Assembly (NCBI GenBank): GCA_017416065.1
Contig: JAFQDM010000022.1
Location: forward strand, 1 to 64,000
Source of the DNA: Ruminococcus sp.
GTDB lineage: Bacteria; Bacillota; Clostridia; Oscillospirales; Acutalibacteraceae
Reading direction: 5' to 3'
DNA: 64,000 bases
The stretch's first letter is position 1. Each line of letters opens with the position of its first letter. The position numbers and the translations under genes are program-made. Shown here one piece after another: positions 14,804 through 16,069 of the stretch. The notes below the pieces were generated by a model. That model had not been told where the DNA came from. It searched no databases and was given only the letters and a program-made list of their open reading frames with translations.

Positions 14804-16069
14804 TTATGCTCCTGTGTAAGCCTCTGCCTGTGCATTGTAAGCATACATTGCTCTGACAAGATCCTTTAAGGTATCCTTGGCTGTACCCAGCGCTGTGTTG
14901 CCATAGCTGAAGGCACCGTAGCTGAGTGTTACTCCGCCAACCTGAGCCGTAAAGCTGTTGTCAAGATTCTGTGCAAGAATGTCGTCTATCTTCAGCAGAT
15001 ACTTGTCTGCGCTTTTCACAAGCTCTGCGGCTTTGCCGTCTACGGTAACGTTCAGAGTGGAAGCATCCACATCCTCAGAAACGATAAAGTAGTGCTTGAT
15101 TGCAGTCTCAGACTTCAAAGAAAGAGATGAACCATAGTACTCTACACCCTCTTCGCTGCCTGTAAGTGTAAATTCATATTCACTCAGGTCAAGGCTTTCG
15201 TCAAGTGCCTTGTCTGCATCACTCATATACACCGTATCGTTTGCAAGGGCATCTGCATTGTTGCTGAAATAAAGCTGTGCAGCCGCACCGTAATTAAGCA
15301 TTGCCTTTACGAGAGGCGCTGACTTTGTGTATTCATTCTCCGCAACAGAGCCTGTGTTGGAGGTGTTGCTTATTGTGCCGCCGGAGGTATCGCCTGCAAT
15401 TCCGCCTGCGTAGGAATTCTCTGCTTCCTCAGCCTGCTGCAGGATATACTCTGCGTACTCCTTCACGGAGTATTCATACACATCTCCCTGATAATCATCG
15501 GTTACTATCTGTGCCTTGATTACAGAGGTCATCTCCTTTGCCGCAACCTGGCAGGTGAACACATGGTATCCCTCAGCTGTCACCACTGCCTCGCTCAAGG
15601 GAACAACCTTTTCGTAAGATGAACCTGCATCGGGAACTGTGAATATCATCTTTGTGGTTGGGTCTTCAACAGCAGCAGATGTAAGTGCCATGTGGAAATT
15701 TACTGCAATATTGCCCCCAAGGCTTATGGTGCAGCCCTGAAGAGTAGCAGGAGTTCTGGACCTCAGAAGAAGGTGTATAGTAGACTCCCTCTGGATGTAG
15801 TAGTCGCTGAGGGTTTTGCCCTCCTCCAACTGCTTGCCTGCAAAAATCAGGCGCTGCTGATCAGGGGGAATTCCTTCCTTTTCCTGAATCTTTGCTTTGA
15901 TTGCATCGATTGAATCGTTAGGCTCAACCTCAAGAGTGATGGTTGCTCCGGTAAGTGTTTTAACAAAAATCTGCATCGCAAAAACATTCACCACAGACAC
16001 CACAAGCATCGTCATCATAATGCAGAGGGTCAGAGCCAGGCACAAGACCTTTTTTGCTGTCTTTTTCAC
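14804..16069 (-). CDS. Secreted protein with N-terminal ubiquitin domain
   Basis: GTG start at 16069 behind AAAGGAGGAG gives 421 aa. Residues 1-31 form a signal peptide ending VFA; cleavage there exposes MQIFVKTLTG, the exact start of ubiquitin. Residues 32-107 align with all 76 ubiquitin positions without gaps, about 60 identical to human ubiquitin by eye. Kept: K6, K27, K29, K33, K48, L8, I44, H68 (V70 is Leu). Changed: K11A, K63R, and the C-terminal LRLRGG is LRSRTP, so no free or processable Gly-Gly exists. Residues 108-421 are a bacterial-type domain (GCTISLGGNIAVNFHM, LNYGAAAQLYF) with a GLUG-like Gly insert at about 220-243. It has its own promoter and leads an operon with a 46-aa peptide gene. 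A role as ubiquitin mimic outside the cell is inference. Confidence 0.92.
   Translation of the reverse strand: MKKTAKKVLCLALTLCIMMTMLVVSVVNVFAMQIFVKTLTGATITLEVEPNDSIDAIKAKIQEKEGIPPDQQRLIFAGKQLEEGKTLSDYYIQRESTIHLLLRSRTPATLQGCTISLGGNIAVNFHMALTSAAVEDPTTKMIFTVPDAGSSYEKVVPLSEAVVTAEGYHVFTCQVAAKEMTSVIKAQIVTDDYQGDVYEYSVKEYAEYILQQAEEAENSYAGGIAGDTSGGTISNTSNTGSVAENEYTKSAPLVKAMLNYGAAAQLYFSNNADALANDTVYMSDADKALDESLDLSEYEFTLTGSEEGVEYYGSSLSLKSETAIKHYFIVSEDVDASTLNVTVDGKAAELVKSADKYLLKIDDILAQNLDNSFTAQVGGVTLSYGAFSYGNTALGTAKDTLKDLVRAMYAYNAQAEAYTGA

Follow-up and report, generated by a model that had tools for sequence, protein, structure and literature searches.

Conjugating ubiquitin-like proteins of bacteria, such as the MoaD, ThiS, Bil/BubABC and TtuB types, have a beta-grasp fold. 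Ubiquitin itself is the classic example of a eukaryotic protein; among secreted bacterial copies, our literature search found a single one that has been studied, BfUbb (ubb) of Bacteroides fragilis. A prolyl isomerase is among the targets of BfUbb. BfUbb is described as a free mature protein of 76 amino acids that is 63% identical to human ubiquitin and antibacterial (PMC3352274, PMC5705921). According to PMC3352274, BfUbb is an inhibitor of in vitro ubiquitination and forms a covalent link with human E1 despite the absence of Gly-Gly, and PMC5705921 counts B. fragilis among a few bacteria whose ubiquitin is eukaryotic-like. In the openly accessible literature, we found no report of ubiquitin domains in clostridial surface proteins, which is not proof of absence. 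The Ruminococcus sp. protein analysed here resembles BfUbb, as described in PMC3352274 and PMC5705921, in having a (here predicted) signal peptide that runs straight into a eukaryote-like ubiquitin, in the loss of Gly-Gly and in its patchy occurrence among relatives. Unlike the free 76-residue BfUbb, it is clostridial, its ubiquitin domain is fused to a further module of 314 amino acids and it has many sister proteins. BfUbb is the known system nearest to it in layout, and two defining features of the related families, the free-standing form and Gly-Gly, are absent.

The gene lies at 14804..16069 on the minus strand of the window, i.e. the whole stretch of 64,000 nucleotides that was analysed, and all features in this paragraph are on the same strand. 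Its 421-residue ORF has three parts, namely a predicted signal peptide followed by a ubiquitin domain and by a C-terminal module of 314 residues; a Shine-Dalgarno-like AGGAGG (16077..16082) lies upstream of the GTG start. The predicted signal peptide, judged by eye, covers residues 1-31 (15977..16069) and ends in VFA; ubiquitin Met1 follows at residue 32, giving a predicted mature protein of 390 amino acids. The ubiquitin domain occupies residues 32-107 (15749..15976; PF00240, E 1.5e-27; beta-grasp in the model) and the C-terminal module, likely an attachment or localisation module, residues 108-421 (14807..15748). Inside the latter is a GLUG-like insertion (residues 221-243, 15341..15409; YAGGIAGDTSGGTISNTSNTG) that is predicted to be flexible. 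The earlier note had described a secreted protein with a ubiquitin domain directly behind its signal peptide, and this layout was confirmed, with 60 of 76 positions identical to human-type ubiquitin. Ten bases downstream of the gene is a small ORF of 46 amino acids (MKKNYETAEINIFLF...DETEIL; 14653..14793), and an intrinsic-terminator-like hairpin of 15 pairs, then a T run, lies at 14586..14621. Three terminator-like sites were found in the stretch, against 1.7 expected in shuffles, and this hairpin is by far the longest. It is likely that the ubiquitin gene and the small ORF are co-transcribed and that the hairpin is the end of this two-gene transcript. The small ORF is kept 3' of the orthologue in another species of the genus (genome G410) and also occurs close to some proteins that bear this C-terminal module but no ubiquitin. 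GC content is 0.465 in the ubiquitin part and 0.483 in the C-terminal module, and the base composition of the two parts gives no sign of recent entry.

The ubiquitin domain scores 95.5 bits against PF00240 (curated cut-off 25.4), which makes it a member of the family by profile, and the predicted model has the ubiquitin-type beta-grasp fold of that family. It opens at ubiquitin Met1 and closes with Arg-Thr-Pro where ubiquitin has Arg-Gly-Gly. A true modifier carries a free C-terminal Gly75-Gly76; here, Thr-Pro stands in its place and 314 more residues follow. Unlike MoaD/ThiS- or Bil/Bub-type proteins, the window domain ends in Thr-Pro without Gly-Gly, and it is predicted to be exported. Two earlier proposals are supported, namely that the domain is a eukaryotic-type ubiquitin rather than a MoaD/ThiS-type protein and that, lacking Gly-Gly, it is unlikely to be conjugated via its own C-terminus. 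No E1-like family was detected near the gene among the murF-like gene, YjbQ, an ORF with a weak dockerin match and a 113-residue ORF that were scanned. Among 45 distinct bacterial domains, Gly76 is present in five and Gly-Gly in two, and residues 1-72 are 83% identical to human ubiquitin, a figure raised by the omission of domains below 44 of 72 from the set. Because Gly76 survives in so few of them, conjugation appears unlikely, and in these bacterial ubiquitins the fold has probably been retained and conjugation given up. Two orthologues have Gly-Gly directly before the C-terminal module (P0128, RLRGG-IEQLEG; P0134, LKGG-IEQLEG); therefore, a eukaryotic DUB could in principle free their ubiquitin. 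Between the window gene and its G410 orthologue, dN is 0.127 and dS 1.03 in the ubiquitin part (dN/dS about 0.12), and dN is 0.200 and dS 1.07 in the C-terminal module, suggesting a long joint residence with a constraint on the ubiquitin part at least equal to that on the module.

PF00240 was matched at E 1e-5 or better in 33 of 161 genus genomes, diverged internal domains included, and in three of 398 in the phylum sample, where one match is partial; at E 1e-4, it was matched in 19 of 398 in the family sample, and the window's genome is counted in each of these figures. The exact layout of the window protein (signal, ubiquitin and module, with nothing between) is present in full length in two of the 161 genomes, the window's own and G410. 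In total, 55 ubiquitin ORF matches were retrieved in 52 of 58 loci. A simple N-terminal rule selects 38 of these ORFs, including a misread contig-end fragment (L157) and three double-glycine genes; a hydrophobic stretch precedes the ubiquitin in 34 of the 38, and the MQ start is found in 32. Some ubiquitins stand directly behind an Ala-X-Ala-like site, and about ten residues lie between in many members of the dockerin group. When 15 relatives, chosen and not random, were compared with Pfam, dockerin was over the cut-off in seven, GLUG in two and SLH in one.

Dockerin cargo is normally an enzyme or a carbohydrate-binding module. As in the amylosome and cellulosome dockerin proteins of ruminococci, sister proteins of the window protein use a dockerin, here to carry ubiquitin, and the window's own genome has eight cohesin matches, six of them over the cut-off (the control matched in 2/14 genomes, over the cut-off in 1/14). 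Unlike those proteins, and in contrast to the seven dockerin-bearing relatives above, no dockerin was found in the window protein. L121, with 169 amino acids, consists of signal peptide, ubiquitin and dockerin, and no other domain was found in it; in L120 and L123, ubiquitin and dockerin are the sole domains found behind the signal peptide, and L044 is a protein of 145 amino acids with ubiquitin and a short tail. Since no domain besides ubiquitin and dockerin was found in L121-type proteins, the ubiquitin looks like cargo. Judged by sequence, the window protein belongs to a large set of ubiquitin-bearing proteins in the genus, most of them secreted, and this set comprises at least two ubiquitin types.

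Other arrangements were also seen. In a genome of the same family (G093), four small tandem genes (L054:2497-4003) have double-glycine leaders, recognised by eye (LSEEELELVIGG); three ubiquitin domains encoded there are over the Pfam cut-off and one match is weak (E 0.047). By eye, these genes adjoin an HD-type gene and ribosomal genes, and a bacteriocin-like export of ubiquitin is a question that they raise. A single C39 peptidase match lies elsewhere in this genome, and 8/14 control genomes also have one. Diverged ubiquitins, about 44-50% identical to that of the window, occur inside large surface-type proteins (L047, L049, L051, L142-L149 and L151), with an InlB-type B-repeat in L143 and with two ubiquitin copies and a dockerin in L148. 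A plant-like polyubiquitin fragment deposited under Enterococcus hirae (P0295, on an 854-base contig) is probably contamination.

The window domain is 93% identical over 72 columns to the ubiquitin of Entamoeba histolytica (4gsw; entry title and PMC8588831), with the same fold in the predicted model, and 81% identical over 74 columns to human ubiquitin. It differs from the E. histolytica protein in lacking Gly75-Gly76, in its predicted export and in being joined to a bacterial module. In the solved-structure search, 4gsw obtained 137.5 bits among single ubiquitins, the next 127.2 and the common human sequence 124.9. With Foldseek, 4gsw appears at rank 27 only, its E-value nearly tied with those of human structures; the donor claim relies on identity and sequence bit scores. 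For the orthologue P0123, 4gsw (150.2 bits) is the sole one-ubiquitin chain under E 1e-40. These identities and bit scores bear out the suggestion, already made from the sequence, of a protist rather than a metazoan donor. A second ubiquitin group (L043, L045 and L156) has KHITLEVEPTDRIED in common to all members. The best single-ubiquitin fit of L043 is chain m of 5xy3 (140.3 bits vs 122.8 for human), and 5XY3 is the ribosome of Trichomonas vaginalis (PMC8860606). In P0152, the C-terminal module of the window protein (41%) is joined to a ubiquitin of this second, Trichomonas type, which matches L043 at 52/71 positions, the window domain at 40/71 and human ubiquitin at 43/71, and for which 5xy3 is the only one-ubiquitin chain under E 1e-23. 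That one module occurs with two ubiquitin types suggests either that ubiquitin was captured twice, from different donors, or that it was exchanged among the bacteria. A third group, whose members bear dockerins, reaches 67/72 identity to Acanthamoeba ubiquitin, which is not diagnostic of type; the ubiquitins of L121 and L130 likewise give no diagnosis of type.

It is conceivable, although we would stop short of calling it probable, that gut clostridia have repeatedly captured protist ubiquitin, of at least the Entamoeba and Trichomonas types, and use it without conjugation as cargo that can be plugged onto dockerins, S-layer anchors or further surface modules, as a coat in the molecular language of predators or of the host. 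The compared libraries may lack the true donors, which could be related gut protists or viruses. A single old bacterial acquisition followed by diversification, or a viral route, in which case the Entamoeba- and Trichomonas-like changes would not be separate donor marks, seems unlikely to us. In a tree of 45 bacterial and 27 eukaryotic domains (72 columns; the 27 hand-picked from 178 distinct eukaryotic units, without Entamoeba, Trichomonas, rumen ciliate or viral rows), five changes were needed and none of 200 bootstrap trees needed just one, and the best fits exceed human ubiquitin by 12.6 bits (4gsw) and 17.5 bits (5xy3), in two different protists. However, this tree is poorly resolved and cannot place the bacterial domains, and its strong branches are compatible with one origin and force no more than that. 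The authors of PMC5705921 also note that the closest BfUbb orthologues are found in amoeba-infecting giant viruses, which they regard as possible vectors.

The C-terminal module (residues 108-421) matched no Pfam family. Neither dockerin (PF00404), searched up to E 1, nor SLH was matched in the window protein, and no LPXTG-type motif was seen at its end. In the model, mean confidence of the module is above 85 in most 10-residue blocks; pLDDT falls below 50 at mature residues 190-212, the GLUG-like insertion, of which P0136 has little and P0152 none. Modelled alone without an alignment, the module had a pLDDT of 40, and structure searches with the whole protein model returned match lists filled by ubiquitin. 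In protein searches with full-length or dockerin-type queries, eukaryotic polyubiquitin crowded out other matches, and only a query of residues 106-421 revealed the family. This query retrieved 344 matches; 18 of the 120 matches listed carried a ubiquitin label, one of which (P0058) is the window's own protein. The 17 listed ubiquitin-labelled relatives, once aligned, have the same part order, and in 16 of them the ubiquitin Met is at residue 32; P0130 starts at this Met. A contig scan gave 17 named genome loci with the module, none with a ubiquitin match, so the module occurs mostly without ubiquitin. Whole-query matches, ubiquitin-only matches included, were obtained in 91 of 161 genus genomes, and by these searches the module is a widespread clostridial family without a Pfam match. 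In four of four own-genome relatives compared, it lies at the very C-terminus behind differing N-terminal parts, and for this reason it is likely an attachment module. From the same position in relatives, we infer that it anchors the window protein in the envelope. The partner regions in these own-genome proteins are, by eye, papain-like and starch-binding-like.

The reading that we prefer, tentatively and with slightly less than even confidence, is that the bacterium displays a protist-type ubiquitin on its surface, where it would serve as a ligand for binding or as a decoy. It is suggested by the ubiquitin-only cargo, by the loss of Gly76 with the fold kept and by the terminal, attachment-like module. 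Sec export and cleavage after VFA would leave ubiquitin Met1 as a free N-terminus, and the C-terminal module, with which other proteins of this genome also end, would retain the protein at the envelope. Without Gly76, the domain would be neither activated nor cleaved off by eukaryotic enzymes. The displayed domain could engage ubiquitin-recognising proteins that reach the bacterium, giving attachment or interference, and these partners would most likely come from bacteria-feeding gut protists or the animal host. The loss of Gly-Gly alone leaves contact with conjugation enzymes possible, as BfUbb binds human E1 without it.

Several points count against a ligand or decoy: the closest studied relative, BfUbb, is described as an antibacterial toxin (PMC5705921); the window protein has no dockerin, SLH or LPXTG and its module is mostly found without ubiquitin; and, in the window's group, the Ile44 surface is no better conserved than other exposed residues. 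In this group (15 domains), conservation is 0.82 at the Ile44 surface vs 0.895 at other exposed residues, with 9359/10000 random exposed sets reaching the score of the Ile44 surface; for the dockerin group (17 domains), the two are only level at 0.929 vs 0.913 (3909/10000 random sets), in a crude test for which exposed and core residues were assigned from general ubiquitin knowledge and in which positions 70-72 adjoin the fusion joint. Core residues are the best conserved (0.972 and 0.980 in the two groups). The lack of preferential conservation of the Ile44 patch weighs against the classic binding mode. Binding to host ubiquitin receptors, E2/E3 or DUBs, which the earlier note had put forward, did not gain support, since its sole computational test, Ile44 conservation, was negative for the window's group.

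Alternatively, the ubiquitin domain, anchored or released, may poison competing bacteria as a BfUbb-like antibacterial weapon, which we consider improbable. BfUbb also starts with ubiquitin directly behind the signal peptide, lacks Gly-Gly and inhibits sensitive B. fragilis as a 76-residue peptide (PMC5705921), the same-family genome G093 has leaders of bacteriocin type, by eye, on ubiquitin genes, and ubiquitin itself is listed as weakly antimicrobial at high dose in a table of PMC10892293. However, bovine ubiquitin was inactive in the BfUbb assay described in PMC5705921, and the domains studied here, with up to 67/72 identity to human ubiquitin, are nearer to native ubiquitin than is BfUbb (63%, PMC3352274). 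A BfUbb mutant structure (8hm2) is just 55% identical to the window's domain, and many relatives bear large C-terminal modules. It is also doubtful that ubiquitin is kept merely as a cap, a small and very stable fold at the N-terminus or in a stalk that resists proteases and serves structure or export: L121, L120 and L123, with ubiquitin and dockerin behind the signal, offer nothing obvious to cap, and the occurrence of one module with either of two kinds of ubiquitin suggests that it is the ubiquitin that is wanted. Such a cap would agree with the superior conservation of core residues over an Ile44 patch that is not outstanding, and with the diverged ubiquitins inside large surface-type proteins, e.g. 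L143 with its InlB-type B-repeat.

All functional readings, including display as a ligand or decoy, concern a gene that recurs at the same locus. In G410, the same gene (74%) is flanked by murF and tatD, and yjbQ and metG are likewise conserved in the surroundings; murF was named from Mur ligase domains and yjbQ from NCBIfam, and the other two neighbours are presumably tatD and metG. The G410 orthologue is an ORF of 419 amino acids, the stop in the match being its natural end, and its product is identical to P0129, a database entry under Ruminococcaceae/Oscillospiraceae, which places the organism among the clostridia. In G429, the gap between murF and tatD is 74 bases, with nothing found within, and in seven other genomes examined tatD does not adjoin murF in the compared stretch. 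A 459-residue ORF at 13071-14450 of the window begins like a signal peptide and gives a dockerin match that is below threshold (E 0.019); no counterpart was found in the G410 and G429 loci. That a eukaryotic fragment was fused onto a bacterial contig by assembly or binning, a concern already raised from the sequence, to which the mostly draft state of the assemblies, with 36 contigs for the window's genome, lends some weight, is as good as refuted, because G410 has the same fusion at the same site with the same neighbours, and moreover the reading frame is continuous through the fusion, codon-level divergence is alike in the ubiquitin part and the remainder, with a dS of about 1, and at least 17 database proteins have the same part order. 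The gene is bacterial and under constraint.

The modular, surface-type, protist-like ubiquitin of clostridia is a new form of secreted bacterial ubiquitin. About a fifth of the sampled species of the genus, which, judged from relatives, is likely gut-dwelling, have ubiquitin-family domains, some of them on cellulosome-like and surface modules and with the marks of two gut protist lineages. If true, the capture of protist ubiquitin would be a clear case of gene flow from protists to gut bacteria, and from its display one would expect a so far unrecognised interface at which bacteria meet the protists that graze on them or the mammalian gut. In samples from gut and rumen, signals from ubiquitin epitopes and ubiquitin-binding reagents may then come from bacteria.
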